A stretch of 64,000 bases of DNA. Origin: Kutzneria buriramensis. GTDB lineage: Bacteria > Actinomycetota > Actinomycetes > Mycobacteriales > Pseudonocardiaceae. The stretch lies in assembly GCF_003387475.1 (NCBI RefSeq), contig NZ_QUNO01000009.1:1-64000 (forward strand), in the 5' to 3' direction. A program made the translations under genes and the position numbers. A model generated the notes under the pieces. That model was not told the origin of the DNA. It saw nothing but the letters and a program-made list of their open reading frames with translations, and ran no database searches. Every line of letters begins with the position of its first letter. Position 1 is the first letter of the stretch. Positions 13,138 through 38,792 of the stretch are shown one piece after another.

Positions 13138-13144
13138 CGGCGCC

Positions 13145-15716: not shown

Positions 15717-15736
15717 TGTTCGGGTAGGCTGGGAAC

Positions 15737-16276: not shown

Positions 16277-16326
16277 GCGTCGGTCCACGGTGTCCGGATC
16301 GGCATGAGGATCCCTCGCCGATCGGG

Positions 16327-18598: not shown

Positions 18599-18599
18599 G

Positions 18600-22577: not shown

Positions 22578-23813
22578 GTGGCCCAGGACAAGCCGCTGCT
22601 GCTCATGGTGGGCAGCGCCGGGGCGGACTTTCGCGCCTACATCTTCGAATCGGTGTCCCGGCGGTACCGGTTGTGGCTGCTCAACGCGACGCCGCCCACC
22701 TGGGAGACGCCGTTCATCGAGTCGCACACGCTGGTCGACTGCGCGCAGCGGGACAGGCTGGCGGCCACCGCCCACGAGGTCGCCCTCGACCACGAGGTCG
22801 CGGGCGTTTTCTGTTACGACGAGCGATTCGTGGAATCCGCGGCTTCCATCAGTGTGGAACTCGGGTTCAAGACCTGGGATCCGGACGCCGTGGCCCGCTG
22901 CCGTGACAAGAGCGCCACCCGCGCGGCGATCCGGGACGCCGGGCTGCCGCAGCCGCTGTCGACGGCCGTGTCCACGCTGCCGGAGGCACTGAGCGTGGCC
23001 GCCGCCATTGGCTATCCGGTGGTGGTCAAGCCGCGCAACCTCGCCGGCAGCGTCGGCGTGCGCAAGGCGTCGAATGCCGACGAGCTCGCCGCGGCCTATG
23101 TGCTCACCGCCGGCGCGTCGCTGCCCGGTGTGGAGCGGTTCGAGCGGCACGTGATCGTCGAGGAGTTCCTCGACGGGCCCGAGATCGCCGTGGACTGCGT
23201 GTTCTACGACGGCAGGTGCCAGCCGATCGTCGTCGCGCACAAGCTGCTGGGCGGGAAGCCGCCGTTCGAGTTCGACGAGCAGGGCCACGACGTCGACGCC
23301 GCCGACCCGCTGCTGTCCGATCCGGTGCTGCTGGACGCGCTGACGCGCAGCCACGCCGCCGTCGGATTCCGTTACGGCGTGACCCACACGGAACTGAAGC
23401 TGACGCCTCGCGGGTTCTGCGTGGTCGAGATCAACCCGCGGATGGGCGGCGACCTGATTCCCCGCCTGGGGCACCTCGCCTCCGGCTACGACGAGTCGCT
23501 GGCCGCCGCGGACGTCGCCGCCGGCGTGATGCCGGCTGAGGTCACACGTGATCGTGCCGGCGCGGCGTCGATCCGGTTCGCCGTGCCCGACCACGACATG
23601 GAGGTCACCTCTTGTCGTGTGCGGCGGGAGCTGGTGACCGGACCGGTGCACACCGCGCACCTCGCCGTACGGCCCGGCCGCGTGCTTCGGCTGCCGCCCA
23701 AGGAGATCGCCCGCTTGGGCTGCGTGATCGCCGTCGCGGACACGGTGTCGGAGGCACGGGCGGCCGTGGCGGATCCGGGGCGGTTCTTCGACGTGACGGG
23801 CGTGCCGCTGTGA
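22578..23813 (+). CDS. ATP-grasp ligase (first)
   Basis: A 411-residue ATP-grasp protein of the amino-acid/peptide ligase type (the dapdiamide/BacD-like group). The N-terminal domain opens LLLMVGSAGADFRAYIF. The ATP-binding core includes GYPVVVKPRNLAGSVGVRKA, IVEEFLDGPEIAVDC and the metal-binding segment VVEINPRMGGDLIP. Such enzymes activate a carboxylate as acyl phosphate and join it to an amine. The GTG at 22578 follows ACGGGGGAA; the longer frame has no ribosome site. The next gene, an MFS exporter, overlaps its stop by GTGA. Substrates are unknown. Confidence 0.88.
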   Translation: MAQDKPLLLMVGSAGADFRAYIFESVSRRYRLWLLNATPPTWETPFIESHTLVDCAQRDRLAATAHEVALDHEVAGVFCYDERFVESAASISVELGFKTWDPDAVARCRDKSATRAAIRDAGLPQPLSTAVSTLPEALSVAAAIGYPVVVKPRNLAGSVGVRKASNADELAAAYVLTAGASLPGVERFERHVIVEEFLDGPEIAVDCVFYDGRCQPIVVAHKLLGGKPPFEFDEQGHDVDAADPLLSDPVLLDALTRSHAAVGFRYGVTHTELKLTPRGFCVVEINPRMGGDLIPRLGHLASGYDESLAAADVAAGVMPAEVTRDRAGAASIRFAVPDHDMEVTSCRVRRELVTGPVHTAHLAVRPGRVLRLPPKEIARLGCVIAVADTVSEARAAVADPGRFFDVTGVPL

Positions 23814-24994
23814 GCGCCACCGTCACCGGCACGCTCCGGTCGATGACCGGCACCGCTCGGCTGCTCGTCGTCGGCGTGTTCGTGAACAACCTGACGTCCT
23901 TCCTGAACGCCTTCCTGGTGCTGTTCCTCGTGCATCGCGGGGTTTCCCCGTGGCAGGCCAGCCTTGCGCTCGCGGCGTTGATGATCGGTCGGGTGATCGG
24001 CAGCGCCATGGGCGGCACGGTCTGCGCCCGGTTCGGCCGCCGCGCGACCATCGCCGGCTCGCTCGGCGCGGCGGCGGTGCTGACGGTGGCGTTGGTCTTC
24101 CTGCCCGTTGCAGCATTGGCGATCGCCGCCGCCATCGGGTTCGCGACCCGGGTCGGACTGCCGGCCGCGACCGCGTGGCTGGTCGAGCTGACCCCGGCCA
24201 ACCAGCAGGTGATGGTGTTCGCCGTGCAACGCCTGGCGTTCAACCTCGGCGTGACCCTCGGTTCGCTGCTGGCGGCGGTGATCGTGCAGTACTCGTACGA
24301 CCTGCTCTTCTATGCCGACGCCGTGACGACGCTGGCGTTCTGTCTGATCGCCGTTGTGTTCCTGCCGGCGGCGGGGCCTTCTGTGGCTCCTGTGCGTGCG
24401 TCGCGTGGCGGTGGCCGGCGGGTGTGGGGCGACACCCGGTTCATGGTGGTGGCTGCCGCGTTGTTCCTGGTTGCCGTCGCCTACGTGCAGGCGTCCGCAG
24501 CCCTGCCACTCTTCGTGACCGGCATCGGGCAGCCGGCGTCGGTGTACGCGCTTCTGTTGGCCGTCAACGGTTTTGTCGTGATCACGCTGGAAGTACTGGT
24601 GTCGCGGTGGACGCAGTCGCTGCCGACCTGGTTGCCGATGGCTTTGGGTATGGCGCTGCTGGGCGTCGGCGAGATGCTGTACCTCGTGCCCGGCGGCGTG
24701 CCGATGCTGGTGGTGGCGACGTTGGCCTGGACGCTCGGCGAAACGGTTGCCGCGCCGTCGATGCTGGCCTATCCCGGCCTCGTCGCGCCGGCCGATCTCC
24801 GTACGCACTACATCTCCTTCGCCACCGCCGCCCAGCAGCTCGGCTGCGCCGTCGGGCCGGTCGTGGGCACCGTGCTGTGGCAGGTGTCAAGCTCGGCCGT
24901 GTGGCTGGTGACCGGCGGATGCGCGGTTCTTGCCGCCGTACCGGTCATCGCCGGTGGTCGGGTGCGTCGCGTTGAAGACCTCGTTTCCTTCTGA
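23810..24994 (+). CDS. MFS transporter
   Basis: A 394-residue major-facilitator protein with about 11-12 membrane helices. It has an RFGRR loop between helices 2 and 3 (CARFGRRATIAGSL), the conserved MFS motif A position. It opens with a GTG that overlaps the preceding ATP-grasp stop by four bases and is followed 16 bp later by a second ATP-grasp gene. Placement between two amino-acid ligases suggests export of, or self-protection against, a small peptide product. Confidence 0.9.
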   Translation: MSATVTGTLRSMTGTARLLVVGVFVNNLTSFLNAFLVLFLVHRGVSPWQASLALAALMIGRVIGSAMGGTVCARFGRRATIAGSLGAAAVLTVALVFLPVAALAIAAAIGFATRVGLPAATAWLVELTPANQQVMVFAVQRLAFNLGVTLGSLLAAVIVQYSYDLLFYADAVTTLAFCLIAVVFLPAAGPSVAPVRASRGGGRRVWGDTRFMVVAAALFLVAVAYVQASAALPLFVTGIGQPASVYALLLAVNGFVVITLEVLVSRWTQSLPTWLPMALGMALLGVGEMLYLVPGGVPMLVVATLAWTLGETVAAPSMLAYPGLVAPADLRTHYISFATAAQQLGCAVGPVVGTVLWQVSSSAVWLVTGGCAVLAAVPVIAGGRVRRVEDLVSF

Positions 24995-25010
24995 TCAGAG
25001 GATTTTCGTC

Positions 25011-26261
25011 ATGGGCAAGCCCGTCGTCGCCGTTCTTGAGCCGTACAGTTCGGCCGCTCTGCTTGGCCCCGCCCTGCGCTCGGCCGGGTTCAGTCCCGTT
25101 GCCGTCACCTATCCCCCCGGCCGGGAGCACGCCGCCGCGCGTCCCACCCTGCACCTCGACGACTACGACGCCGTCGTCAACCATCTCGGCGACTTCGACG
25201 GCACCGTCGACCGTCTCGCCGCGCTCGGCCCCATCGCGGTGATTCCCGGCGCCGAGCGATCGCTGCACATCGCCGAGCAGCTCACCGGGGCGCTGGGCCT
25301 GGATGCCGCGAATGTGCCCGAACTGCTGCCCGCCCGTCAGAACAAGTACCTGATGCACCAGGCGCTCGCTGCTGCCGGCTTGCCGGTCATCCGCCAGATC
25401 TGCACCCGTGACGCCGACGAGGTCGCCGCGTGGATTCTGCGCGAGGGGCTCACCGGTCGGGACCTGGTCATCAAGCCCCCGGCCAGCGGTGGCACCGTCG
25501 GCGTGAGCCTGGCGGCGGGCGGGGTCGGCTGGCGGGAGCAGTTCGCCGCGCTGCTGGATCGTCGGGACAAGCTCGGGGTGTTCAACGATCAGGTGCTGGT
25601 GCAGGAGTACGTCACCGGCACGGAATTCGTGGTGGACACCGTCAGCGTGAACGGTCGGCATTCCGTCACGAACATGTTGGAGTACCGCAAGGTTCGGCGC
25701 GGCGAGGGCATGGCCGTGTACGAGAGCATGGAGTGGCTGCCTTACGACACCGCTGCGTATGGATCGTTGATCGAGTACGCCTTGGCCGCGTTGGACGCCG
25801 TCGGTTTGCGGAACTGGGCCGCTCACACCGAGATCATGATGACCGAGGACGGGCCCCGGTTGGTGGAGATCAACCCTCGGCTGTCCGGGGTCGGGAGTCC
25901 GGCGATCACGTTGATGGCGACCGGGGAAAGTCAGGTCACCCGCATCGTGGACGTCTGCGCCGGACGGGGTGATCGGCTGCCCGCCGGTTTCGATCTGCGT
26001 CAACACTACCTGGCGGTGTTCCTGATCGCGCATTCGTCGGGGGTGGTGCGGAACGCCGAGATCTTCGACCGGGCTAAATCGCTGGAGAGCTACCACTCGC
26101 CGGTGCAGGTGGTTCGGAGCGGCGACCGGGTGGAGGCGAGTACGGACCTGTGGACGAGCATGACCATGGGGTACATCGTGCTGGCGCATGAGAGTGCTGA
26201 GCAGACCCGAGCCGACCGGGAGGCGATCCGGGAGCTGGAGAAGGAGCTCGTGATCGAATGA
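25011..26261 (+). CDS. ATP-grasp ligase (second)
   Basis: A 416-residue ATP-grasp protein, paralogous in layout to the one at 22578. It shows DLVIKPPASGGTVGVSLA (ATP-binding loop), VLVQEYVTGTEFVVDTVSVNG and the metal-binding segment LVEINPRLSGVGSP. This ATEYVVD...HS-type core is shared with BacD-like L-amino-acid ligases used for dipeptides and related natural products. The ATG at 25011 has AGAGGA 9 bases upstream. It is the last gene of the ligase-MFS-ligase operon. Two ligases in one operon suggest either a tripeptide-like product or two different couplings. Confidence 0.88.
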   Translation: MGKPVVAVLEPYSSAALLGPALRSAGFSPVAVTYPPGREHAAARPTLHLDDYDAVVNHLGDFDGTVDRLAALGPIAVIPGAERSLHIAEQLTGALGLDAANVPELLPARQNKYLMHQALAAAGLPVIRQICTRDADEVAAWILREGLTGRDLVIKPPASGGTVGVSLAAGGVGWREQFAALLDRRDKLGVFNDQVLVQEYVTGTEFVVDTVSVNGRHSVTNMLEYRKVRRGEGMAVYESMEWLPYDTAAYGSLIEYALAALDAVGLRNWAAHTEIMMTEDGPRLVEINPRLSGVGSPAITLMATGESQVTRIVDVCAGRGDRLPAGFDLRQHYLAVFLIAHSSGVVRNAEIFDRAKSLESYHSPVQVVRSGDRVEASTDLWTSMTMGYIVLAHESAEQTRADREAIRELEKELVIE

Positions 26262-26344: not shown

Positions 26345-26760
26345 GTGCGTGGGCTTCCCACCCATCCGCCCTAACCCCCATTGCCAACCGTCCGCGCCGC
26401 CATCCCCTACGGGCCGTAGTGCGTGGACTCCCCCGCCCGCCTCACGAATCTTCACCACCGACCGGCCGCGCCACCACCCCCTCAGGCCGCAGCGCGCGAA
26501 CTCCCCACCCGCCCCACGAATCTCCACCACCGACCGCCCGCGCCACCACCCCCTCAGACCCCAGCGCGCGAGCTCCCCACCCGCCCCACGAATCTCCACC
26601 CCCGACCGCCCGCGCCACCGCCCCCTCAGGCCGCAGCGCGCGAACTCCCCACCCGCCCCACGAATCTCCACCACCGACCGCCCGCGCCACCACCCCCTCA
26701 GGCCGTAGTGCGTGGGCTTCCCGCCCACCCGCCCCATCCCTCACCACCAACCATGTTCCC
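26345..26760. repeat. Tandem 72-bp repeat array
   Basis: The landmark CTCAG recurs at 26481, 26553, 26625 and 26697, exactly 72 bp apart. Degenerate flanking copies (beginning GTGCGTGG near 26345, 26419 and again 26707) bring the total to about six. Each unit contains CACGAATCTCCACC and CACCACCCCCTCAG; the outer copies share GTGCGTGGGCTTCCC, which the inner ones replace. Because 72 is a multiple of three, frames stay open on both strands, but no start, ribosome site or codon pattern supports a protein. The minus strand has a G-rich run (GGGGCGGGTGGGG) in each inner unit and could form G-quadruplexes. Confidence 0.8.
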
Positions 26761-27007: not shown

Positions 27008-28141
27008 ATGGAAGCGACCTGGGATCCCACCGCCGCATGGCGGATGGACGACACGTCGCTCTGGCACGCCTGTAGTGAAGCCCAAGACCTCCGCCGCGCC
27101 GCCTACACGCGCTTGGTCGAGATGGTCGCGGAGCTGTGGAACCGCACCGGGCGCTCCAAGGAAGACCGGGTGTCGTTGGTCGCGCAGGTCCAGACTCAGT
27201 TGCGCGTCACCAAGAAAGACGCGTTACAGATCGTCGCCCACGCACAACTCTTCGGCAGGGACGCAGTCCGGGACGCTGCCCGCGCCGGCAAAATCGACGC
27301 CGACCAGCTCACCGTTCTGAACGAAACCCTAGCCCAAGCACCGATCCTGGACCGCGACAAAGTCGAAGCCGAACTGCTCCACAACACCCACCTCCCGATC
27401 CACCAGTTCCGCCTAGCCGCCAAACGAATCCTCGTCCTGCTCGACCAGGACGGACCAGAACCCAAAGACGACCTCGCACAGCCGAAACGCGAGTTCCACT
27501 ACGGCAGCCGCCCTGACGGATCCGTCGCCTTCCGAGGCACCATCGACCAGGAGAGCGGCGCACTCCTCGCCGCACTGATCAGTCCGCTGGCCAAGCCCAC
27601 GGCCGACGACACCCGCACCACCCCGCAGCGACAGGGCGACGCCTTCACCGAGATCATCGAGCTCGCGGCCGGTAGCGACAAGCTGCCCGACGAAGGCGGC
27701 GAACGCCCCCACCTCGCCATCACCATGAACGCGACAGAATTCCTCCAGCACATCGGCATGGCCGAGATCCAAGGCGGCGACCCCATCGACGCCGAATCAG
27801 CCCGCCGCATCGCCTGCGACAGCACCACCTACCGCATGATCATCGACAACAACTCCGCACCCATCAACATCGGACGCAGCACCCGCACCATCCCCAACAC
27901 CATCCGGCGAGCACTCATCATCAGGGACAAAGGCTGCGCCTTCCCGGGATGTCATCGCAGACCTAGGCAATGCCACGCACACCACGTAACCCACTGGGCC
28001 GACGGCGGATGGACCAGCCTCGACAACCTCGTACTGCTCTGCAGCACGCACCACCGCATGATCCACCACTCGAAATGGACCGTGAAGATCATCGACCGAC
28101 AACCGGTCTTCACGCCACCTGCCGAACTCAGATCGGGTTAG
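27008..28141 (+). CDS. DUF222/HNH-endonuclease-domain protein (13E12 repeat type)
   Basis: A 377-residue protein with an N-terminal helical DUF222 domain and a C-terminal HNH nuclease domain. The HNH core reads CAFPGCHRR, CHAHHVTHWADGG, SLDNLVLLCSTHHRMIHH, with the two CxxC/CxxH zinc positions and catalytic His all present. The family is highly multicopy in actinobacterial genomes and behaves like a mobile or domesticated element; its function is unsettled. GC is visibly lower than in its neighbours. TAGAAT at 26996-27001 lies 6 bases before the ATG, which suggests a leaderless transcript. It ends 4 bp into the convergent PGM1-like gene. Confidence 0.88.
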   Translation: MEATWDPTAAWRMDDTSLWHACSEAQDLRRAAYTRLVEMVAELWNRTGRSKEDRVSLVAQVQTQLRVTKKDALQIVAHAQLFGRDAVRDAARAGKIDADQLTVLNETLAQAPILDRDKVEAELLHNTHLPIHQFRLAAKRILVLLDQDGPEPKDDLAQPKREFHYGSRPDGSVAFRGTIDQESGALLAALISPLAKPTADDTRTTPQRQGDAFTEIIELAAGSDKLPDEGGERPHLAITMNATEFLQHIGMAEIQGGDPIDAESARRIACDSTTYRMIIDNNSAPINIGRSTRTIPNTIRRALIIRDKGCAFPGCHRRPRQCHAHHVTHWADGGWTSLDNLVLLCSTHHRMIHHSKWTVKIIDRQPVFTPPAELRSG

Positions 28142-29589
28142 CAGGCGCCCTGCCGTCGGTCGGCGGTGGGCTGGGCCAGGTCGGCGGCCAGGGAACGCAG
28201 GGCGTCCTGCATGGCCTCGGCCTCCGGCACGGACTCGGCGATGCAGACGGCGCCGAACTTGCCGTAGGCGGGGAGGGTGCTGAGCAGGTGCAGGGCGACG
28301 CCGCGTTTGCGGACGGGGTCGAAGTGGAGCGGGGAACGTTCGACGGCGTCGATGAGTGTGTGGGGACGGAGGCCGATGTAGCGGTCTGAGGCGATGCTGT
28401 CGGAGGCTAGGTAGACGCGGCGGGAGGGGCCGACGCGGAAGTCGCCGGAGGGGTCGGGGGTGACGCCGAGGAGATGACTGACCATGTCGAAGCCGTGGCG
28501 GGTGCCGGTGGCGCGGAGATTGATCTCGCAGCCGAAAAGGTGCCAGCTGCCGGAACGAAGGACCGCTATGAAGTCGACGCCGTAGTCGCCGCGGTGGATG
28601 CCCTGGGCGGCCAAGGCGGTGCCTACGCGGAGGCCCAGGTCCATGACGGTGGATCGGTACGAAGCGTCCGCCGGGAAGCGAGAGCCGGTGTAGGTCTGGC
28701 CGTTGGGGGCCAGGACCTGTTCGTGGGTGGAGACGGCGACGGGACCGTCGGCGGTGAAACGGCCCTGGAAGCTGGGGCTGGCGAAGTCGTCGCCGGTCAG
28801 GAACTCCTCGGCGAGGATGCCGGCCTCGGCCACCAGGTCGGCGAAGGCGGGCCAGGCGAGAGTGGTGTCGATGACCTGGGCGCTGGGTAGGAGGGCCTCG
28901 ACGTCGGCGGCCGAAGCGACGTCCGGAAGGTCGAGGAGGGCGTTGCCCATGCCGGCGGCGTAGGCGGTGGAGTCCAGCTTCAAGACGAAACGGTGGATGC
29001 CGGACTGCACCAGAGGAACGAGGGCGGCGGCCAGGTCGGGGAGGGAGCGGACGAGAGGGGTGGCCCGAGCGACGGGGACGCCCAGCGACGAGAACAATGA
29101 GCGGCTGGCGGCCTTGGTGCCCAAAGGGATGGACCAGGAAGGGGCCTGTTCCGGGATGACGCCCAGCGAGGAAGCCAGGCGTTCCAAGGGCTCGGACGGT
29201 TCGAAGTACGACAGGAGCACTTCGCGGCCGGCGGCGCGTTCGCGGGCGACGGCGTCGTGCAGGAAAGAACGGGCGGCGATGGCGTCGGGATGGGTCGCGT
29301 CCAGGAGCTTCTCGCTGAGCCAGCGGGGAGAACGGTCCGCAATGGACAACACGGTGACGCGGTCGCCGACAGACGGGTGGCCGGCGAGACGGCCGAAGTA
29401 CGCGATCTGGGCGGCCATGTCCTCCATGGCGGGCGCGGAAACGCAGATCACGGAACCGCCGGGGCGGTGCAGGGCGGCGAGGATCGCGGCGCCGATGGGA
29501 CGCTCCGGATACAACGTCGAACCGGCCAGGCGCTCCAGCACCGCGGGGCTGCATTCCCGGCTCTGCACCGATATCCACATCATGGCCAT
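28138..29589 (-). CDS. ATP-grasp protein resembling peptide ligase PGM1
   Basis: A 483-residue protein. The middle contains an ATP-grasp core of the PGM1 type: LGTKAASRSLFSSLGVPVARA, then FVLKLDSTAYAAGMGNALLDL in place of the usual KLNEG-SGEGNA, and a C-terminal LFGCEINLRATGTRHGFDM (metal-binding Glu and Asn). PGM1 joins a nonribosomal amino acid to a peptide in pheganomycin-like pathways; relatives occur in several peptide natural-product clusters. The altered glycine loop may change ATP handling. ATG 29589 has AGGAAGGA upstream; ATGs at 29583 and 29580 are alternatives. It follows the flavoenzyme gene by 30 bp and is probably cotranscribed. Confidence 0.72.
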   Translation of the reverse strand: MAMMWISVQSRECSPAVLERLAGSTLYPERPIGAAILAALHRPGGSVICVSAPAMEDMAAQIAYFGRLAGHPSVGDRVTVLSIADRSPRWLSEKLLDATHPDAIAARSFLHDAVARERAAGREVLLSYFEPSEPLERLASSLGVIPEQAPSWSIPLGTKAASRSLFSSLGVPVARATPLVRSLPDLAAALVPLVQSGIHRFVLKLDSTAYAAGMGNALLDLPDVASAADVEALLPSAQVIDTTLAWPAFADLVAEAGILAEEFLTGDDFASPSFQGRFTADGPVAVSTHEQVLAPNGQTYTGSRFPADASYRSTVMDLGLRVGTALAAQGIHRGDYGVDFIAVLRSGSWHLFGCEINLRATGTRHGFDMVSHLLGVTPDPSGDFRVGPSRRVYLASDSIASDRYIGLRPHTLIDAVERSPLHFDPVRKRGVALHLLSTLPAYGKFGAVCIAESVPEAEAMQDALRSLAADLAQPTADRRQGAC

Positions 29590-29619: not shown

Positions 29620-30987
29620 TCACCGGTTCGGGCGAAAGACCTTGCCGGGGTTGAAGATGCCGGCCGGGTCGAGGGCGTCCTTGACCCGGCGGTGCATGTC
29701 CAGCACGGCCGGGCTGACCTCGTCGGCCAGGCCGCGCATCTTCAACAGGCCGACGCCGTGCTCGCCGGTGACGGTGCCGCCGAGAGCGAGAGCGGCATCG
29801 ACGATACGCTCCATGGCGGCGTGACCGCGGCGGGCGGTGTCGGTGTCGCCCGGCGGGAGGACAATCATGGGGTGAAGGTTGCCGTCACCGGCGTGGGCGA
29901 GACTGGCGATGCGAACACCACATGACTCAGCAATACCCTCGATGGCCTCGAACATGCGCGGCACGAGGGTGCGCGGCACGCAGACGTCCTCAGTGAGCAC
30001 TGGGCCGAGCCGCTCCAGGGCCGGATACACCAGCCGCCGGGCGGCGAACAGGGCGTCGGCCTCGGCCTCGTCGGTGGAGCGGGCTTGCCAGGTGGCGCCG
30101 GCGGAGGCGAAGCACTCGAGCAGGGTGTCGGCCTCGCCGGGAACGTCGGAACGGGCGAGCAGCAGCACGTTGCCGGTGTCCGAAAGACCCATGTTCTTCC
30201 ACTCGTCGACGGCGCGCAGGCAGAAGCGGTCGACGAGCTCCAGCGCACTGGGCACGACGCCGGACGCGGTGACGGCGGCAACGGCCCGGCCGGCGATGGG
30301 CAGGTCATCGAAGTACCCGACGATGGTGCTCTCCGGCGGTCGAGCGCCGCGGAGGCGAAGCGTGATCTCGGTGACCAGGCCCAGGGTGCCCTCCGAGCCG
30401 ACCATCAGGCCGGACAGGTCGTAGCCGGCGACGCCCTTGGCGGTACGGCGACCGAGGCGCACAACCTCGCCGCGACCGGAGACGACCTCCATGCCGAGCA
30501 CGTAATCGCGCGTGACGCCGTACTTCACGCAGCACACGCCGCCGGCGTTGGTGGCGACGTTGCCGCCGATGGTGGACCACGGGGCGCTGGCCGGATCGGG
30601 CGGATACCACAGGCCCTGCACCGCACAGGCCGCGCGCAGATCGGCGTTGACGACACCGGGCTGCACGACGGCGAGGCGTTCCAAGGGATCGATGTCGACG
30701 ATCTGGTTCATCGACTCGAACGACACGACCAAGCAACCGGAAACGGCGTTGGCCCCGCCGGACAGGCCAGTTCCCGCGCCGCGAGCGACGATCGGGATGC
30801 CCCGGACGGCGCAGAACTCTACCAGCGCGGCAACTTCGGCGGTGCAGCGCGGCCGAACGACGGCGGCCGGCGTGGCATACGGGGCAGCGGCGGCCTCGTC
30901 GCGCGCATAGCGGACGATCACGTCCGGGTCGGTGACCACGCGGCCGGCGGGGAGGATTCGGTCGAGCTCCGGAAACGTCACGCCCAT
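29620..30987 (-). CDS. FAD-linked oxidase, GlcD/D-2-hydroxyacid dehydrogenase type
   Basis: A 455-residue flavoprotein. The FAD-binding type 4 domain has GAGTGLSGGANAVSG and GGNVATNAGG. The C-terminal FAD-oxidase domain ends with the His-containing HAGDGNLHP and GEHGVGLLK motifs of GlcD/lactate dehydrogenases. Family members oxidise 2-hydroxy acids such as glycolate, D-lactate or 2-hydroxyglutarate. The ATG at 30987 (MGVTFPEL) is chosen; the frame extends 12 codons upstream without a clear site. It is the first gene of a two-gene unit with the PGM1-like ligase and diverges from the KS/ACP operon. It could supply a 2-keto acid for the nearby aminotransferase. Confidence 0.9.
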   Translation of the reverse strand: MGVTFPELDRILPAGRVVTDPDVIVRYARDEAAAAPYATPAAVVRPRCTAEVAALVEFCAVRGIPIVARGAGTGLSGGANAVSGCLVVSFESMNQIVDIDPLERLAVVQPGVVNADLRAACAVQGLWYPPDPASAPWSTIGGNVATNAGGVCCVKYGVTRDYVLGMEVVSGRGEVVRLGRRTAKGVAGYDLSGLMVGSEGTLGLVTEITLRLRGARPPESTIVGYFDDLPIAGRAVAAVTASGVVPSALELVDRFCLRAVDEWKNMGLSDTGNVLLLARSDVPGEADTLLECFASAGATWQARSTDEAEADALFAARRLVYPALERLGPVLTEDVCVPRTLVPRMFEAIEGIAESCGVRIASLAHAGDGNLHPMIVLPPGDTDTARRGHAAMERIVDAALALGGTVTGEHGVGLLKMRGLADEVSPAVLDMHRRVKDALDPAGIFNPGKVFRPNR

Positions 30988-31121
30988 GCGTCCGACCCTA
31001 TTTCGCCGCGGCGTGAGCATCAATCATGGCCGTTGGCCGTTGCCCTTAGGGCCAATTGAACCGGCCGGGCCGGCGCTGGTGTGATCGAACCCAAGCAGCG
31101 AGGACGTGGAGAGGACCGACA

Positions 31122-32138
31122 ATGCTGGGGGTGCTCACCGGTATCGGCGGCTATCTGCCGCCGACGGTCGTCACCAACGACGACCTGTGCTCCACATTGG
31201 ACACTTCGGACGAGTGGATCGTGGCTCGCACGGGCATCCGCGAGCGGCGCAAGGTGGCCGATGGAGCGTCCACAAGGGACCTCGCGGTGGAGGCCGGCAA
31301 GCGGGCGCTGCGGTCGGCCGAAAGGACGACGGTCGACGCGGTGGTGCTGGCGACGACGTCGTTCGACCGGCTCTGTCCGGCGGTCGCGCCGGAGGTGGCG
31401 CACCTGCTGGGCCTGGACACCGTGGCGGCCTTCGACCTGACGTCCGCGTGCAGCGGCTTCCTGTACGGTCTGGCCACCTGCAACGGCCTGATCGCCACCG
31501 GCGTCGCCGACAGCGTGTTGTTCATCGGCGCGGAGGCGTTCACCACCCTCGTCGACCCGGACGACCGCAACACCGCGCCGATCTTCGGCGACGGGGCGGG
31601 GGCGGTGGTGCTCCGAAGGGGCGAGCCGGAGGAACCCGGTGCGCTGGGCGGATTCGACCTCGGCAGCGACGGCGCCCGCGCCGACCTGCTGGCGATTCCG
31701 GCCGGCGGGTCGCGGCAGCGGTCGGCGGTCGGGCTGGGCTTCGCCGAGGTGCCGACCAACGAGTGGTACCTCCAGATGGCGGGTCGACCGTTGTACACGC
31801 AAGCCGTCGAGCGGATGAGCGCCTCGTCGCGGCGGGCGCTCAAGGACGCCGACTGGGCGGTGGCGGACGTCGATCTGTTCGTCGGCCACCAGGCCAACGT
31901 GCGGATCGTGCAAGCCGTCGCCGAGGAGCTGGGGCTGCCGCAGGAGAAGGTCGCGGTCAACATCGACCGGGTCGGCAACACGCTGGCGGCCTCGATCCCC
32001 CTGCTGCTCAACGACTGCGTCGACCGGGGTCAGCTGCGGGCCGGCGATCGCGTGCTGCTGTCGGCGTTCGGCGCCGGCCTGTCCTGGGGGTCGACGACGC
32101 TGGTCTGGCCGGACGTCCCGGTCGAGACCGTGCACTGA
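31122..32138 (+). CDS. FabH-like ketoacyl synthase III
   Basis: A 338-residue KAS III. The catalytic triad is complete: Cys110 (TSACSGFLYGL), His256 (VGHQANVRI) and Asn286 (RVGNTLAAS). The N-terminal segment DEWIVARTGIRERR is the usual FabH signature. KAS III enzymes start acyl chains by condensing an acyl-CoA with malonyl-ACP, but some FabH-like enzymes in clusters act as acyltransferases. It opens a seven-gene operon after GGAGAGGACC. An ACP follows in 15 bp. Confidence 0.94.
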   Translation: MLGVLTGIGGYLPPTVVTNDDLCSTLDTSDEWIVARTGIRERRKVADGASTRDLAVEAGKRALRSAERTTVDAVVLATTSFDRLCPAVAPEVAHLLGLDTVAAFDLTSACSGFLYGLATCNGLIATGVADSVLFIGAEAFTTLVDPDDRNTAPIFGDGAGAVVLRRGEPEEPGALGGFDLGSDGARADLLAIPAGGSRQRSAVGLGFAEVPTNEWYLQMAGRPLYTQAVERMSASSRRALKDADWAVADVDLFVGHQANVRIVQAVAEELGLPQEKVAVNIDRVGNTLAASIPLLLNDCVDRGQLRAGDRVLLSAFGAGLSWGSTTLVWPDVPVETVH

Positions 32139-32153
32139 GGAGGAGACAACGCT

Positions 32154-32396
32154 GTGGGTACCACCTTCGAATCCGTCGTCGCGGTGCTGGCCAAGCGGTT
32201 CGACATCGATCCGGCCGAGGTCAGCCGGGAGTCGTCCTTCGACGACATCAACCTCGACTCGCTGTCCCAGATCGAGTTCGGCACCGCGCTGAACAAGGCG
32301 TTCGCCGTGGACATCTCCGACGACGAGATGGCGGAGCTGTCGGTGATCGGCGAGGTCGTGGACAAGCTCGACGAGAAGCTGGCGGAGAAGGTCTGA
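32154..32396 (+). CDS. Acyl carrier protein
   Basis: An 80-residue ACP with the phosphopantetheine site in INLDSLSQIEF (Ser36). It is acidic overall, with a four-helix pattern. The GTG at 32154 follows a strong GAGGAGGAGAC. Its stop overlaps the next start by one base (TGATG). It carries the growing acyl chain for the two ketosynthases on either side. Confidence 0.95.
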   Translation: MGTTFESVVAVLAKRFDIDPAEVSRESSFDDINLDSLSQIEFGTALNKAFAVDISDDEMAELSVIGEVVDKLDEKLAEKV

Positions 32397-33595
32397 TGAC
32401 GGGTTTCGCGGCGGCGATCACCGGGATCGGGCTCGTCACCTCCGCCGGCGTCGGCGTGCCGGCGAACTGGGACCGGGTGGTGGCGGGACAGGGCACCGCG
32501 GCGGTCGACCCCGAGCTCGACGGTCTGCCGGTGCGGATCTCGTGTCGGGTGCCGGATTTCGCCGCCGACAACGCCTGGAAGTTCGACCGCTACACGCGTT
32601 TCGCCCTCGCGGCGGCGCAGGAGGCATTGCGGCAGGCCGGCCTCGACCCGTCGGGCTGGGAAGGCTCCCGGGTGGCGGTGGTGATCGGCTCGGGGGCGGG
32701 CGGCACGGCCTCTCTCGAGCAGCAGCACCGCGAGCTGTTGGAGGGCGGACCGTCGACGGTGTCGCCGCTGACGCTGCCGATGGGGCTGCTCAACATGGCC
32801 GCCGGCCAGGTGGCGATCGAGTTCGGCGCCACGGGCCCCTGCCTGGCGCCGTGCACCGCGTGCGCGTCCGGCGCGACGGCGATCGGCATCGGGCGGGACA
32901 TGTTGCGCCTGGGCACCGCCGACATCGTGATCGCCGGCGGCGCCGAGGCCCCGGTGACGCCGTTCTACTCGGCCGCCTTCGCCCGGATGCGGGCGCTGTC
33001 GCGGAACGCCGATCCGGAGACGGCATCGCGCCCGTTCGACGTGGCGCGGGACGGCTTCGTGCTGGGCGAAGGCGCCGGCGTGGTGGTGCTGGAGTCCGAG
33101 GAACACGCCCGGGCACGCGGTGCGGACACGCTGGCGCGGGTGATCGGCTACGGCGCGTCGGCCGACGCCCACCACGCGACCGCGCCGCATCCGGAGGGGC
33201 GTGGGGCCCGGCTGGCGGTCCAGGCGGCGCTGGCCGATGCCGGGCTGACCGGCCGCGACGTCGGCTACGTCAATGCGCACGGCACCTCTACCCCGATGAA
33301 CGACCGGGTGGAATCGGCGGTGATCCGCGACCTGATCGGCGCCGACGTGCCGGTGAGCTCGACCAAGGGCGTCACGGGGCACCCACTCGGCGCCGCCGGC
33401 GCCATCGAGGCCGCATTCGCGGCGCTGGCCGTGCGGCACGGGGTCGTGCCGCCGACGGCGAACCTCACCGACCCCGACCCGGTGGCCGACATCGACCTCG
33501 TGTTCAAGGCGGCCCGAACCGGCCGGATCGACGTGGCGCTGAGCAATTCCTTCGGTTTCGGCGGCCAGAACACCGCCCTGCTGCTCGCCGCGTGA
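32396..33595 (+). CDS. FabF-like ketoacyl-ACP synthase II
   Basis: A 399-residue KAS II. Catalytic Cys156 lies in CTACASGATAIG; the two histidines are in NAHGTSTPMND and KGVTGHPLGAAGAI. It has the FGFGGQN C-terminal motif. The cysteine makes it a true condensing enzyme rather than a chain-length factor (which has Gln there). No ketoreductase, dehydratase or enoyl reductase is encoded in the operon, so the beta-keto group is either kept or processed by housekeeping enzymes. Confidence 0.95.
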   Translation: MTGFAAAITGIGLVTSAGVGVPANWDRVVAGQGTAAVDPELDGLPVRISCRVPDFAADNAWKFDRYTRFALAAAQEALRQAGLDPSGWEGSRVAVVIGSGAGGTASLEQQHRELLEGGPSTVSPLTLPMGLLNMAAGQVAIEFGATGPCLAPCTACASGATAIGIGRDMLRLGTADIVIAGGAEAPVTPFYSAAFARMRALSRNADPETASRPFDVARDGFVLGEGAGVVVLESEEHARARGADTLARVIGYGASADAHHATAPHPEGRGARLAVQAALADAGLTGRDVGYVNAHGTSTPMNDRVESAVIRDLIGADVPVSSTKGVTGHPLGAAGAIEAAFAALAVRHGVVPPTANLTDPDPVADIDLVFKAARTGRIDVALSNSFGFGGQNTALLLAA

Positions 33596-33621
33596 ACCAC
33601 CCCATCGACCAAGGAGAACCG

Positions 33622-35376
33622 ATGACCCCGGCCGCCGAGCTCCTCCGGCTGGTCCACGACGGCACGTACGACGAGGCGCACCAGGACGTCCGCGCTGCGC
33701 TGCTGGACGAGATCTTCGACCCGCGCGAGGGCCTGAGCCTGCCCGAGGCCGGCCGGCTGGCCTACGAGCGCTGCCGGCACCTGCACGGCAAGCTGGCCCG
33801 GCCGCTGGACATCCTGCGCGACCCGCGCCGGCTGTTCGCGCTCGCGGAGTGGCCGTCGCTGCTGGACGTGTCGACGTTCTCGCTGCTGATGGTGCACTAC
33901 AACCTGTGTCTGGGCACGGTGTTCGACCACGGCCTGGACCGCCCGGACCTCCAGGACATGATCGCCGAGCTGGACGGTCTCTCCTCCTTCGGGCCGTACA
34001 TGGCGACCGAGCTCGGCTACGGCAACAACGTGGCGGCGCTGCGCACCGAGGCGGTGTACGACCGCGAGACGGAGACGTTCGTGCTGAACACCCCGGACGC
34101 GGCGGCGCAGAAGTACATGTCCTACAGCGGTTTCCGGGACATCCCGAAGATCGCCGTGGTGATGGCGCGGCTGCGGGCCGACGGCGAGGAGCAGGGCGTC
34201 TTCCCGTTCCTGGTCCGGATCAGCGACCACAATGGACTGTGTGAGGGCATCCGGGCGGTGCCGTGCCCGGAGAAGCCGGTGCAGGGCCTGGACAACGGCC
34301 TCACCTGGTTCGACCACGTCCGGATCCCTCGCAAGAACCTGCTGCTCGGCGATATGGCGACATTCGACGAGGACGGCACCTTCCGCGCGACCGGCGGCAA
34401 TCGGCGCAAGCGCTTCCTGAGGGCGATGAGCCGCATCCTGCCGGGCCGGCTGTGCGTGTCCAGCGCCGCGGTCGGCGCGGGCAAGGCCAGCGTGTACATC
34501 GCCCTGCGCTACGCGGCGAATCGCCTCACCAACGCGCCCGGCCGCGACGACGTTCCCATCCTCGCCTACCGCAGCCACCAGCTCGCGCTGTTCACGGCGC
34601 TGGCCAAGGTGTACGCGATGACGTTCCTGCTCAACCACGCCAAGCGGGAGTTCCTCGCCGGCGAGAACCCCGAGCTGAACGACCTGATCTCCATCACCAA
34701 GGCGCTGTCCACCTGGGAGATGACGGACGTCGTCGCGGTGTGCCGCGAACGCTGTGGGGCGCAGGGGATATTCAGCGTCAACCGGATCGCGGACTACGGC
34801 TCGCTGTTGCAGGGCCTGGTCACCGCCGAGGGCGACAGCCAGGTGCTGCTGGCCACCACGGCCGGCCAGATGCTCGCCCGCAGGGACGACGCCCCGGAGC
34901 CGGCAGTGCCCTGGCCGCACGACCGGGACATCGCGGATCCCGTCCGGCACGTGGAACTCCTGCGCTACCGCGAACACACCCTGCGCGCCGCCGCACGGAC
35001 GGCGATGGCCGCCGAGACCGGCTACTTCGCCGGCTGGAACAACGCCATCAACCCGGCGCTGGCGATGGCCCGAGTCCGCGGCGTCCGGATCGCGTTGGAG
35101 CAGCTCCTCAAGACGGGATCGGAGATCCTGCGTCCGCTGGCGGCGTTGTACGGGCTCACCGAGATCCAGCGCGACGCCGGGCTGTACCTGGCCCGTGGCG
35201 CGATGACCGCCGAACAGGTCGAGCGCCTGCCGGCCGTGATCGACGCGCAGTGCGCTCAGATCCTGCCGCACGTGAACACCCTGATCGACGGCTTCGGGCT
35301 GACGCCGGAACTGCTGCGGGCGCCGATCGCCGCCGACGACTACCTCGCGGCGTTCCAGCAGACGGTCGGGACCTGA
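33622..35376 (+). CDS. Acyl-CoA oxidase/dehydrogenase-family flavoprotein
   Basis: A 584-residue protein of the acyl-CoA oxidase size class rather than the 380-residue dehydrogenases. The fold is recognisable from an N-terminal helical domain, a central beta domain (ATELGYGNNVAALRTEAVYD, with FVLNTPDAAAQKY), and two C-terminal helical domains. Oxidases of this type introduce an alpha,beta double bond with O2. In Streptomyces a similar enzyme (Aco) takes part in making avenolide-type butenolide signals, which is one possible analogy. The ATG at 33622 follows AAGGAGAA. The thioesterase starts 3 bases after its stop. The substrate may be ACP- or CoA-bound. Confidence 0.9.
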   Translation: MTPAAELLRLVHDGTYDEAHQDVRAALLDEIFDPREGLSLPEAGRLAYERCRHLHGKLARPLDILRDPRRLFALAEWPSLLDVSTFSLLMVHYNLCLGTVFDHGLDRPDLQDMIAELDGLSSFGPYMATELGYGNNVAALRTEAVYDRETETFVLNTPDAAAQKYMSYSGFRDIPKIAVVMARLRADGEEQGVFPFLVRISDHNGLCEGIRAVPCPEKPVQGLDNGLTWFDHVRIPRKNLLLGDMATFDEDGTFRATGGNRRKRFLRAMSRILPGRLCVSSAAVGAGKASVYIALRYAANRLTNAPGRDDVPILAYRSHQLALFTALAKVYAMTFLLNHAKREFLAGENPELNDLISITKALSTWEMTDVVAVCRERCGAQGIFSVNRIADYGSLLQGLVTAEGDSQVLLATTAGQMLARRDDAPEPAVPWPHDRDIADPVRHVELLRYREHTLRAAARTAMAAETGYFAGWNNAINPALAMARVRGVRIALEQLLKTGSEILRPLAALYGLTEIQRDAGLYLARGAMTAEQVERLPAVIDAQCAQILPHVNTLIDGFGLTPELLRAPIAADDYLAAFQQTVGT

Positions 35377-35378
35377 TC

Positions 35379-35789
35379 GTGGCGCGACACGTGTACCGGT
35401 GCCCGCTGCGGTGGGCCGACATGGACGTCTACGGCATCGTCAACAACGTCGTCTTCCTCCGCTACCTGGAGGAAGCGCGGGTGGACTTCATCTACCTGAT
35501 GGCCCCGGCCGACGGCGACGCCTTCTTCCGCGACGGGTCGGTGGTGGTGCGGCACGAGATCGACTACAAGTGGCGGCTGGTGCACCGGCTGGCGCCGGTG
35601 GACATCGAGATGTGGGTGACCCGGCTGGAGACGGCGACCGTCTCCATCGGTTACACCGTCCGCGACGACGACCACGTCTACGCCACCGCCAGGACCGTGA
35701 TGGCGCCGTTCGACTACGTGAAGAACCGCCCCCGGCGGCTGACGGACGCCGAGACGGCGTTCTTCGAGAAGTATCTCGAGGAAGGCTGA
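35379..35789 (+). CDS. Hotdog-fold acyl thioesterase (4HBT/YbgC type)
   Basis: A 136-residue single hotdog domain. The active-site region is RWADMDVYGIVNNVVFLRYLEEARVDF, with the Asp and Asn positions of the 4-hydroxybenzoyl-CoA thioesterase family. It probably releases the acyl chain from ACP or CoA. The GTG at 35379 lies 3 bp after the oxidase stop; a second GTG four codons on is possible. The FAH-family gene starts 3 bp downstream. Confidence 0.9.
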   Translation: MARHVYRCPLRWADMDVYGIVNNVVFLRYLEEARVDFIYLMAPADGDAFFRDGSVVVRHEIDYKWRLVHRLAPVDIEMWVTRLETATVSIGYTVRDDDHVYATARTVMAPFDYVKNRPRRLTDAETAFFEKYLEEG

Positions 35790-35791
35790 GC

Positions 35792-36655
35792 ATGCGACTG
35801 CTGCGGATGGGCCGTCCCGGCGAGGAACGGCCCTGTGTCGAGGATCGGGACGGCGTGGTGCGGGACGTGTCGGCGTGGGTGCCGGACTGGACCGGCGCCG
35901 CGCTGGACCCGGACTTCCTGCGCGAGCTCGGGCCGACCGACGGCCTGCCCGTGGTGGATCCCCGCACCACCCGGGTCGGGCCACCGGTGCGGCCGGGCGG
36001 GCACCTGGTGTCCATCGGCCTGAACTACCGGTCGCACGCCGCGGATGCCGGCATGGCGCTGCCGGACGAGCCTATCGTGGCCAGCAAGGCACCGTCCACA
36101 ATGGTCGGTCCGTACGACGATCTGGTGATCCCGCCCGGCGGCGACAAGACCGACTGGGAGGTCGAGCTGGCGGTGGTGATCGGCCGGAAGGCCAAGTACC
36201 TCCCCGACAGCACCCGAGCCGCCGAGCACATCGCGGGGTTCTGCACCGCAAACGACGTCTCCGAGCGCGGCTGGCTGCTGGAGCGCGGCGGGCAGTGGTT
36301 GAAGGGCAAGTCCTTCGAGTCGTTCACCCCGCTCGGGCCGTACCTGGTGACGCCGGACGAGGCCGGCGATTCCGGTTCGCTGGCGCTGACGTGCCGGGTG
36401 AACGGCCGGCTGATGCAGCAGGCCAGCACCGCGGACATGGTCTTCGACGTGCACCACCTGATCTGGTACCTCAGCCAGTTCATGGTGCTCAATCCCGGCG
36501 ACGTGGTGCTGACGGGCTCCCCTGGCGGCGTCGCACTGGGCCGCCCGGACGAGCCGTACCTGCGGCCCGGCGATCTGGTCGAGGCCGAGGTCGGTGGGCT
36601 GGGCGCGCAGGCCCAGCGATGCCGGGCGGCGCGGGTCGTGGAGGCGATCGGATGA
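35792..36655 (+). CDS. Fumarylacetoacetate hydrolase (FAH) family enzyme
   Basis: A 287-residue protein of the FAH fold. It has SIGLNYRSHAADAG, the metal-ligand region DWEVELAVVIGRKAKYL and the C-terminal LTGSPGGVALGR with the usual LNPGDVV. Members cleave carbon-carbon bonds of acylpyruvates, hydrate 2-oxo acids or decarboxylate oxaloacetate, using Mg or Mn. The N-terminal domain is short, as in bacterial acylpyruvases. Its stop overlaps the aminotransferase start by ATGA. In this operon it probably acts on a keto acid intermediate. Confidence 0.9.
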   Translation: MRLLRMGRPGEERPCVEDRDGVVRDVSAWVPDWTGAALDPDFLRELGPTDGLPVVDPRTTRVGPPVRPGGHLVSIGLNYRSHAADAGMALPDEPIVASKAPSTMVGPYDDLVIPPGGDKTDWEVELAVVIGRKAKYLPDSTRAAEHIAGFCTANDVSERGWLLERGGQWLKGKSFESFTPLGPYLVTPDEAGDSGSLALTCRVNGRLMQQASTADMVFDVHHLIWYLSQFMVLNPGDVVLTGSPGGVALGRPDEPYLRPGDLVEAEVGGLGAQAQRCRAARVVEAIG

Positions 36656-37722
36656 TCACTTTCAGCACGATCCCGGCCGAGCGACGGCCGGCGCGGGAAC
36701 GTGAGCGCCTGTTGGCGGATCCGGTGTTCGGGCAGGTGTTCACCGACCACATGGTGACCGTCAAATGGTCGAGCGGTTGGCACGACGCCCGGCTGGAACC
36801 CTACGGCCCCTTGGCCTTGGAGCCGTCGGCGCAGGTCTTCCACTACGGCCAGGAGATCTTCGAGGGCATGAAGGCGTTCCGGCGGGCCGACGGCTCGATC
36901 GTGACGTTCCGCCCGCGGGCCAACGCCGAGCGCCTCAACCGGTCGGCGGCGCGGATGGCCATGCCGGAACTGCCGGTGGACGTCTTCATGCAGGCGGTGG
37001 ACCTGCTGGTCGGCGCCGATCGGGACTGGGTCCCGCACGGCGAGGGCCGCAGCCTCTACCTGCGGCCGTTCATGATCGCCACCCAGCCGTCGCTGGGCCT
37101 GCACGGGCCGTCGAACGCCTACCTGTTCGTGCTGATCGCCTCGCCGGTCGGCAGCTACTTCGGCGGCAAGCCGGTGTCGGTGTGGGTGTCGACGGAGCAC
37201 TGCCGGGCCGCGCCCGGCGGCACGGGCGCGGCCAAGTGCGGCGGCAACTACGCCGGCACGATCCTCGTGCAGCAGCAGGCCCGCGAGCACGGCTGCGACC
37301 AGGTCGTGTGGCTGGACCCGGTGGAGCGCCGCTGGATCGAGGAAATGGGCACCAGCAACATGTTCTTCGTCTACGGCTCGAAGCTGGTCACGCCGAGGCT
37401 GACCGGCACGCTGCTCGCCGGCGTCACCCGCGACTCGCTGCTCACGCTCGCCGCCGACCTCGGACACCCAGCCGCCGAAGAGGGCGTGAGCGTCGAACAA
37501 TGGCGCAAGGACGCGGAATCCGGCGCGCTCACCGAGACGTTCTCCTGCGGCACGTCATCGATGATCACGCCGGTCGACCGCGCCGTCGGCGTCGACGGCG
37601 AATTCCGCATCCCCGCGCCGGGACCGGTGACGGTGAGGCTGCGCGAGGAGCTTCAAGGAATCCAGGCCGGCACGCGGCCCGATCGGCACGGCTGGATGCA
37701 CGAGATCACGTGTGCTCGGTGA
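36652..37722 (+). CDS. Branched-chain-type aminotransferase (class IV)
   Basis: A 356-residue fold-type IV PLP enzyme with IlvE-type signatures: FHYGQEIFEGMKAFR, the PLP lysine K195 in GGTGAAKCGGNYAGT, and MGTSNMFFVY. It moves the amino group of glutamate to a 2-keto acid, in the usual branched-chain amino acid direction or its reverse. It ends the KS/ACP operon, so it may make a nonstandard amino acid or supply a branched keto acid for chain starting. Whether it is the only ilvE of the genome cannot be seen here. It overlaps the convergent regulator gene by 17 bp. Confidence 0.93.
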   Translation: MITFSTIPAERRPARERERLLADPVFGQVFTDHMVTVKWSSGWHDARLEPYGPLALEPSAQVFHYGQEIFEGMKAFRRADGSIVTFRPRANAERLNRSAARMAMPELPVDVFMQAVDLLVGADRDWVPHGEGRSLYLRPFMIATQPSLGLHGPSNAYLFVLIASPVGSYFGGKPVSVWVSTEHCRAAPGGTGAAKCGGNYAGTILVQQQAREHGCDQVVWLDPVERRWIEEMGTSNMFFVYGSKLVTPRLTGTLLAGVTRDSLLTLAADLGHPAAEEGVSVEQWRKDAESGALTETFSCGTSSMITPVDRAVGVDGEFRIPAPGPVTVRLREELQGIQAGTRPDRHGWMHEITCAR

Positions 37723-38617
37723 CCAGGACGGCCCAGGTCTTCGGCTCCAGCGCGCGGAACACGTGCGGGCGGTCGCCCGGGTACGAGATGCAGTCCCCCG
37801 GCCCCAGCTCCACCGGGTCCTCGCTGAGCCCCACCAGCGCGCGACCGGCGCTGATCACGACGTGCTCCACCACGCCCGGCATGTGCGGGTCGGAGGCGCG
37901 CGGCGCGCCGGGCTCGGCGGCGATGCGGTAGATGTCGCGGCGGGCGTTCGGCGGGCACGTCGCGAGCAGCGTCGCCTGGTAGTCGGCCTCGCCGGACGAC
38001 ACGCGGGGCCCCTCACCGGCGCGGATCACCTGCACCACCGGCCGCGGCGGCTCCAGCAGCCGGGAGAACGGCACGTTCAGCGCGACGCACAGCGCCCACA
38101 GGGTCTCCAGGCTCGGGTTGCCCGTGCCCGACTCCAGCTGGGACAGCGTGGACTTGGCGATGCCGGCCCGGCGGGCGACCTCGGCCAGCGACAGGCCCGC
38201 GCGGGTGCGCTCCCGGCGCAGCGCGACCGACACCAGGTCAAGCGGCGCCTTCGCCGCGTGGTCCTCGGGCTCGGCCACGTTCGCTCCACTGGTCGACTGT
38301 TCGCTTCGATGAACAGTCATCATAGGCAGCCGGGGCGCGGGCACGTCCAGCGTCGTGGCCAGGGACAGCGCGATCAGGCCCGCCTGCAGCCGCGACTCCA
38401 GCCCCAGTTTCAGCAGGATCCGGGCCACGTGGGCCTTGGCCGTCCGCTCGGTGACGCCCAGGCGCTGCGCCAGCGTCCGGTTCGACAACCCCTCGGCCAG
38501 CAGGTCGAACACCTCCAGTTCACGGTCGGACAGGGTGTCGACCCGGGTCAGCGCGGCGCGCCACCCGTCACCCTGCTCCGCGAAGTCCGCACTTCGAGTC
38601 ACTGCGGCAGCCCGCAC
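37706..38617 (-). CDS. Regulator joining a LuxR-type HTH and an XRE-cupin module
   Basis: A single 303-residue frame holds two DNA-binding modules. Residues 20-90 are a LuxR/GerE HTH (LSDRELEVFDLLAEGLSNRT, then VTERTAKAHVARIL). Residues 115-185 are an XRE HTH (LSLAEVARRAGIAKSTLSQL), and residues 225-300 a cupin sensor (GDCISYPGDRPHVF). XRE-cupin proteins normally stand alone. No stop or ribosome site separates the halves, although ATG codons at 38323 and 38320 lie at the junction. The GTG at 38617 has GGGGG 10 bases upstream; a TTG at 38623 is also possible. It converges with the KS/ACP operon and is the likely local regulator. Confidence 0.8.
   Translation of the reverse strand: MRAAAVTRSADFAEQGDGWRAALTRVDTLSDRELEVFDLLAEGLSNRTLAQRLGVTERTAKAHVARILLKLGLESRLQAGLIALSLATTLDVPAPRLPMMTVHRSEQSTSGANVAEPEDHAAKAPLDLVSVALRRERTRAGLSLAEVARRAGIAKSTLSQLESGTGNPSLETLWALCVALNVPFSRLLEPPRPVVQVIRAGEGPRVSSGEADYQATLLATCPPNARRDIYRIAAEPGAPRASDPHMPGVVEHVVISAGRALVGLSEDPVELGPGDCISYPGDRPHVFRALEPKTWAVLVTEHT
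38295..38318. promoter_or_regulatory. Inverted repeat at the LuxR/XRE junction
   Basis: GACTGTTC (38295-38302) and GAACAGTC (38311-38318) are perfect inverted copies with an 8-base spacer. The repeat lies inside the regulator's reading frame, just where the second half could begin at ATG 38320. It may be an operator for the XRE-cupin half or an RNA hairpin; it may also be chance. Confidence 0.4.
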
Positions 38618-38792
38618 GCTCAACGATCCCCCAACCGGTTCGGCGTCGCGTCGGGTTGAATCCTGGGCGCACCCCCACCCCTCACAACATCGGGGAAATC
38701 CCGTTCACCGGGTAGACCGGCGGCCGGCGACCTCCCCTCTGGGCCACCGGCCGCGGCTCACACAGCTAGTTGCCGACTTCGCGGCGGCCGCG

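Follow-up and report, generated by a model that had tools for sequence, protein, structure and literature searches.

The window analyzed here, a 64,000-nucleotide stretch of DNA (positions 1-64000 of contig C9 in the 12 Mb genome of Kutzneria buriramensis, G000), carries a compact seven-gene operon in which two condensing enzymes and an acyl carrier protein are joined by a flavoprotein, a thioesterase, an FAH-fold enzyme and an aminotransferase; its possible relation to the biosynthesis of the isoleucine mimic furanomycin is the subject of this work. Domains in the window proteins were called by Pfam and NCBIfam profile cut-offs, and structural matches were sought against the PDB. The genes of the operon are as follows.

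31122-32138, + strand: ketosynthase III (FabH-like), the starter ketosynthase (KS3); ACP_syn_III and ACP_syn_III_C, with TIGR00747 (fabH) at 318.5 over a cut-off of 292.1
32154-32396, + strand: acyl carrier protein (ACP); PP-binding, with the motif serine in LDSL
32396-33595, + strand: ketosynthase II (FabF-like), the elongating ketosynthase (KS2); ketoacyl-synt, with PRK07314 at 464.9 over 387
33622-35376, + strand: acyl-CoA-oxidase-family flavoprotein of 584 aa (ACO); ACOX_C_alpha1 and ACOX (Pfam)
35379-35789, + strand: 4HBT hotdog thioesterase (TE); 4HBT_2
35792-36655, + strand: FAH-fold enzyme; FAA_hydrolase, with PDB 8gsr at E 9.9e-64
36652-37722, + strand: branched-chain-type (class IV) aminotransferase (BCAT); TIGR01123 at 384.2 over 250.05, with the lysine motif

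Three flanking genes belong to the same set.

29620-31023, - strand: GlcD-like FAD-linked 2-hydroxy-acid oxidase/dehydrogenase; FAD_binding_4 and FAD-oxidase_C (Pfam)
28138-29589, - strand: ATP-grasp amino-acid/peptide ligase; PGM1_C over its cut-off (Pfam)
37706-38623, - strand, convergent with the BCAT gene: fused LuxR-HTH / XRE-HTH / cupin regulator; three domains in a single open reading frame

All seven genes of the operon are present and intact. A sequence-only reading of this DNA had listed the same seven families, and Pfam and NCBIfam confirm each of them at these positions; the gaps of 26 bp or less with start/stop overlaps that it described were measured, in order, as 15, -1, 26, 2, 2 and -4 bp, and the active-site residues it had called intact were found in both ketosynthases (C/H/N in KS3, C/H/H in KS2), together with the ACP serine, the BCAT lysine and the FAH metal Glu/Asp. 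That list of seven genes stands, and omitted the divergent GlcD-like and ATP-grasp genes, the convergent regulator, and the ketoreductase found in relatives. The GlcD-like gene diverges from the operon at 98 bp from KS3, with the ATP-grasp gene 30 bp behind it on the same strand. Its product scores 391.7 bits against the glcD equivalog TIGR00387, under the cut-off of 567.9, and KS2 likewise falls short of the NCBIfam fabF profile (468.8 bits against 493.75). The best PDB match of ACO lies among the acyl-CoA oxidases (E 6.5e-34), and Glu403, at the presumed catalytic-base position, is invariant in the ACO alignment, its motif being present in 24/24 of the core loci described below; we take this residue to be the equivalent of Glu421 in ACOX1. 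A dedicated chain-assembly set (starter ketosynthase, elongating ketosynthase and ACP) is present by family and motif, as are genes that, judged by family, should be able to yield and aminate a 2-oxo acid, namely the GlcD-like oxidase and BCAT. Because the host genome holds 12 ketosynthase III C-terminal matches, one of them (L004) together with ACP and KS2 matches, the operon is not the sole or housekeeping type II fatty acid set; a second ilvE_II match over its cut-off lies on contig C30. These are thus not the only fatty-acid or ilvE copies in the genome, a finding that would have told against the earlier reading had it been otherwise.

A scan of the GTDB representatives with a four-sequence ACO alignment confirmed 233 stretches; the best 80 were kept and compared with ten window proteins, and the 38 best of these (L056-L093) were compared with an enlarged set. 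KS3, ACP, KS2, ACO, FAH and a GlcD-type oxidase occur together in 24/80 loci (L056-L067, L071-L076, L080, L082, L083, L085, L086 and L089), so that the search for this gene set in other genomes, suggested for actinomycetes, succeeded and reached beyond Actinomycetota into Pseudomonadota. TE is found in 23 of these 24 core loci at 56-78% identity, the exception being L089, and BCAT in 16, with none in the five Pseudomonas, the Paraburkholderia and the Massilia loci or in L064, which is cut by a contig end behind FAH. An SDR ketoreductase (KR) accompanies 23/24, with L064 again the exception, and the Pseudoalteromonas and Rhodococcus loci include a MaoC-like dehydratase; the earlier remark that neither reductase nor dehydratase is present thus holds for the window and not for most of its relatives. 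Exporters were identified in 20/24 loci (AzlC in 14, EamA in six) and were not found in L058, L064, L075 and L080. Both BCATs and exporters of the AzlC family act on branched-chain amino acids. The GlcD-type oxidase is 72-76% identical to that of the window in 14 actinomycete loci, 51% in Rhodococcus and 32-35% in the proteobacterial loci, and it keeps the same divergent position in 14/14 Streptomycetaceae/Actinophytocola core loci, of which 12 also have a carboxyltransferase and six have a phosphopantetheinyl transferase like that of L056. Since the GlcD slot is filled by two distant versions and the exporter slot by two families, we argue that hydroxy-acid oxidation and export are required. 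The parts of the fused regulator occur apart in relatives, as an XRE-cupin gene without GerE in L056 and a GerE gene without XRE in L066. In the Massilia locus (L080) there are two GlcD-type genes, at 13144-14634 and 17741-19204, with closely similar N-terminal parts.

Among the 38 detailed loci, GlcD is present in 24/24 with FAH, while GlcD or BCAT is present in 0/14 without it (though the FAH-less stretches of L079 and L081 reach no more than 0.6 kb past ACO). Most of these 14 have at least two of KS3, ACP and KS2 beside ACO, and L092 has ACO alone; the remaining 42 of the 80 loci show only ACO at 34-38%, save that L095 has weak matches to KS2 and L122 has one to GlcD. Over the 24 core loci, strict motif patterns found the KS3 Cys in 23, His in 21 and Asn in 23, the third KS2 motif in 13 and the FAH Asp in 23; a looser KS2 pattern found 24/24, and the KS3 outliers inspected have Cys and His, the Asn of L064 alone staying unfound. 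Nearer to the window's own lineage, 394 genomes drawn from the class included 15 with an ACO match at E<=1e-60, the best, apart from the window's own, at 42% identity, and among 60 relatives G411 has an ACO of 57% accompanied only by KS3-ACP-KS2. Reuse of the ketosynthase-ACO module is seen in L070 (2527-12249, with dioxygenase-like and HPPD-like neighbors named by eye), L053 (8587-19366, with 2-oxoacid-dehydrogenase-like neighbors named by eye) and L091 (6513-13280, with a MaoC-like gene named by eye and a carboxyltransferase identified by sequence match).

A tree built on KS3, KS2 and ACO (35 rows) has a 100/100 branch that separates all 25 rows with FAH (the window among them) and three FAH-less Streptomyces rows from the rest. 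The FAH label needs two changes on this tree, consistent with a single origin and a single loss. Actinophytocola is the partner of the window at 91/78, and the nine proteobacterial rows group at 94/96, neither at the starred level, and L085, L086, L087, L088 and L089 sit on long branches with unsure placement. By the 24 core relatives and their content of GlcD (24), BCAT (16) and exporters (20), the earlier suggestion of a non-standard amino acid made from an ACP-bound chain is supported, and it is very likely that the product is some polyketide-derived amino acid or a peptide of such.

A search of the literature for the gene families of the operon together found nothing. The earlier claim that no named pathway has this set has to be revised, as the order of the genes agrees, by annotation, with that of an operon in a furanomycin producer. 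Furanomycin has the formula C7H11NO3. PMC3662646 describes it as an isoleucine antagonist and mimic made by S. threomyceticus and, as L-furanomycin, by P. fluorescens SBW25; propionate and acetate are its precursors in a polyketide route that is followed by at least six more steps (citing the feeding studies of Parry), and its genes are given as unidentified as of 2013. The isoleucine antagonism was reported in 1967 and the acetate/propionate derivation in 1983. In a paper of 2013, the nine-gene SBW25 operon PFLU3201-3193 is annotated as a ketosynthase (3201), ACP (3200), ketosynthase (3199), acyl-CoA oxidase (3198), possible thioesterase (3197), three unnamed genes (3194-3196) and a pyruvate dehydrogenase E1 (3193), with best matches of PFLU3196-3201 in Streptomyces, and that paper makes no mention of furanomycin (PMC3641028); PFLU3193 has been named aceE2 (PMC5210274). 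In three of the five Pseudomonas loci (L072, L074 and L076, the AceE of L072 by Pfam) the order is KS3-ACP-KS2-ACO-TE-FAH-GlcD-KR-AceE, which agrees with the SBW25 operon, by the words of the published annotation, in six named positions of nine, the closing pyruvate dehydrogenase E1 among them, and in gene count. The window shares with SBW25 the order ketosynthase, ACP, ketosynthase, acyl-CoA oxidase, thioesterase but differs, as compared by annotation, in having BCAT, ATP-grasp and a divergent GlcD and in having neither KR nor AceE. Genes, gene order, conservation, co-occurrence and this agreement of order by annotation are matters of observation. The likeness that we propose to furanomycin biosynthesis lies in an origin from a polyketide, several steps after chain assembly, a product resembling isoleucine, and producers in both Streptomyces and Pseudomonas. 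No assignment of furanomycin genes was found in the literature searched, which covered few subscription papers. Pseudomonas sp. ATCC PTA-122608 was considered as a published furanomycin strain and was not borne out, the literature mention being of an Antarctic-grass isolate. A relation to the cispentacin (amc) pathway was likewise rejected: ACP scores 20.6 against AmcB (cut-off 80) and KS2 234.2 against AmcF (cut-off 325), while both proteins score better against generic ACP and FabF models.

On these grounds we regard the operon as the probable core of a furanomycin-type pathway. We infer the identity of the product and every chemical step. KS3 would join a short starter (propionyl-CoA, if the analogy with furanomycin holds) to malonyl carried by the dedicated ACP, and in some Pseudomonas AceE might provide propionyl units from 2-oxobutyrate. 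A ketoreductase (in-cluster in the relatives, perhaps FabG in the window's host) and a dehydratase would then give the 2-enoyl-ACP, and ACO may desaturate the short chain, possibly at the gamma,delta position as HliR does. HliR is an acyl-CoA dehydrogenase that carries out gamma,delta-dehydrogenation of a pent-2-enoyl thioester (PMC4768178), a precedent for a diene; HliR and TcsD (haliangicin and FK506) share the acyl-CoA dehydrogenase/oxidase superfamily with ACO and are a precedent for desaturation of a short diketide thioester, although HliR is of 392 aa and the window's 584-aa ACO is of the acyl-CoA oxidase branch, the two being likened by family rather than by alignment. KS2 would add the final malonyl and TE release the C7 acid; a propionyl starter and two malonyl units would give seven carbons, as in furanomycin. 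Oxidation at C2 by the GlcD-like flavoenzyme would produce the 2-oxo acid; the FAH-fold enzyme may then isomerize or cyclize this acid by way of a metal enolate, and BCAT would aminate it to an isoleucine-like amino acid. It is conceivable that a 3-hydroxy-2-oxo-diene closes its ring through the enolate at the FAH metal site, giving a dihydrofuran 2-oxo acid for BCAT. Formation of the 2-oxo acid C7H8O4 from 3-hydroxyhept-4-enoic acid would take three two-electron oxidations, or only two should a ketone be retained; the operon set contains two oxidants, ACO and the GlcD-like enzyme. Export would be served by the AzlC or EamA exporter linked in most relatives, and in the window's host the GlcD-adjacent ATP-grasp may build the amino acid into a peptide.

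Several observations weigh against a furanomycin-type product. The main gap is the oxygenation at C2 that furanomycin needs, since no oxygenase family is found among the operon's window proteins. The link to SBW25 rests on annotation words rather than on sequence, with PFLU3194-3196 unnamed there, and no AceE match turned up in the stretches fetched for the two other Pseudomonas loci (L071 and L073). Few Pseudomonas genomes have the cluster (2/398, the centre genome counted). In the window there is no match for a ketoreductase or an AzlC/EamA exporter, and in the relatives the exporter names are at family level, the cut-offs of the azlC equivalog and of EamA-type NCBIfam models being unreached. 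The L089 locus, besides having no TE match, differs in gene order. With respect to the FAH-fold enzyme, the catalytic centre of FAHD1 includes the lid residues H30 and E33 (PMC7056447), and the lid position in our 25 sequences is Glu in 17, Gln in five, Val in one and Asp in one (the window), one sequence (L076) being unreadable; three FAH paralogues keep the Glu. The substitutions are compatible with a non-hydrolytic role, which is suggestive only; with Glu in 17 of the 24 sequences that could be read, a loss of hydrolase function is not established. In L076 (Pseudomonas sp. Kh13), the start of the FAH gene (~12160-13093) seems shortened or out of frame relative to the other four Pseudomonas loci. 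Last, a second isoleucyl-tRNA synthetase (IleRS) was considered as cluster-linked self-resistance and rejected: the window's genome has two (C16:203808-206252 and C3:565349-567844), a second copy occurs in 1/25 cluster-bearing genomes, the window's own, and at least two matches occur in 5/6 other genomes of the genus within a set of 60 relatives that includes the window's genome (one of the three G397 matches is partial and under the cut-off), so that duplication is a trait of the genus. The comparison with SBW25 by annotation, a window with neither KR nor known exporter, and the rejected IleRS link keep our estimate at probable.

The reading that comes nearest to the furanomycin-type pathway, and which we hold possible if unlikely, is a pathway of the same type whose product contains no dihydrofuran and is instead a linear non-standard alpha-amino acid, unsaturated or hydroxylated, or a peptide of it. 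The domain logic requires only a 2-oxo acid, amination and export, the ring-forming enzyme is unproved, and hosts add varied genes (carboxyltransferase, phosphopantetheinyl transferase, AceE, ATP-grasp). Against this reading stand the order of the SBW25 operon and the product known from that strain. Our most specific proposal, in which the GlcD-adjacent ATP-grasp of the window joins a furanomycin-type isoleucine mimic to another amino acid to give a peptide, and the FAH-fold enzyme is a new dihydrofuran-forming cyclase that uses a metal-bound 2-oxo-acid enolate for closure of the ether ring, is doubtful as a whole. The sole PDB match of this ATP-grasp at E<=0.001 is 8yi6, a propargylglycine-glutamate ligase (BesA, E 4.8e-32), which it resembles as an ATP-grasp relative in an amino-acid pathway context, but it scores 129.8 bits against the BesA equivalog NF042917, whose cut-off is 750. 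Its relatives occur at 53-61% in 3/297 family genomes and at 36-38% in three further ones, and the operon was not found within the 33-35 kb around each of the three close relatives. One of the three, L182 (G1041, 11409-16352), has its PGM1-type ATP-grasp beside cysteine-synthase-like, alanyl-tRNA-editing-like and transporter-like genes (named by eye) and is possibly another non-standard amino-acid cluster.

It is improbable that the amino acid is instead a building block for a larger peptide whose synthesis is encoded elsewhere in the genome rather than an exported antimetabolite. The window does have ATP-grasp ligases without an AzlC/EamA exporter match, and the G1041 ligase adjoins genes that, by eye, look amino-acid related; set against this are the exporters of most relatives and the finding of no nonribosomal peptide synthetase domain in the 20 window proteins scanned. 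Less probable still is an ordinary operon of fatty-acid or branched-chain amino-acid metabolism, for while every family occurs in primary metabolism too, the genome has further ketosynthase III and ilvE copies, exporter and regulator are linked in relatives, and the spread is patchy both in Pseudomonas and in the 394 class genomes, where no ACO but the window's own exceeds 42%. Avenolide-type clusters combine an acyl-CoA oxidase with a cytochrome P450. An avenolide-like signaling lipid, which the earlier reading had offered as an alternative on the strength of the acyl-CoA oxidase, is rejected as scarcely credible, as nothing beyond ACO family membership speaks for it, BCAT, FAH and GlcD are adjacent, relatives carry exporters, and no cytochrome P450 occurs among the 20 window proteins scanned.

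Farther from the operon lie three possible members of the cluster.

22578-23813, + strand: ATP-grasp ligase; ATP-grasp_4 over its cut-off, LAL_C2 under its cut-off
23810-24994, + strand: MFS exporter; MFS_1
24954-26261, + strand: second ATP-grasp ligase, distantly DdaF-like; PRK07206 at 399.5 over 302

The trio (22578-26261) resembles a small peptide-maker with its exporter, in the cluster or separate from it. The second ATP-grasp scores 149.8 against DdaF (cut-off 840) and matches the L-amino acid ligase 30vh in the PDB (E 4.7e-43). A DUF222/HNH gene and a repeat array set the trio apart from the operon side, the array being a 72-bp tandem repeat of 4.5 copies (26387-26712) between the trio and the DUF222/HNH gene. 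The trio may be independent of the operon, as relatives of the second ATP-grasp occur in 26/297 family genomes.

The proposed link to furanomycin makes both the formation of the ether ring and the conversion of a polyketide to an amino acid testable in SBW25, a laboratory strain that is tractable. Furthermore, the family of 25 clusters in two phyla, the window included, is a place to look for variants, among them a possible peptide form.

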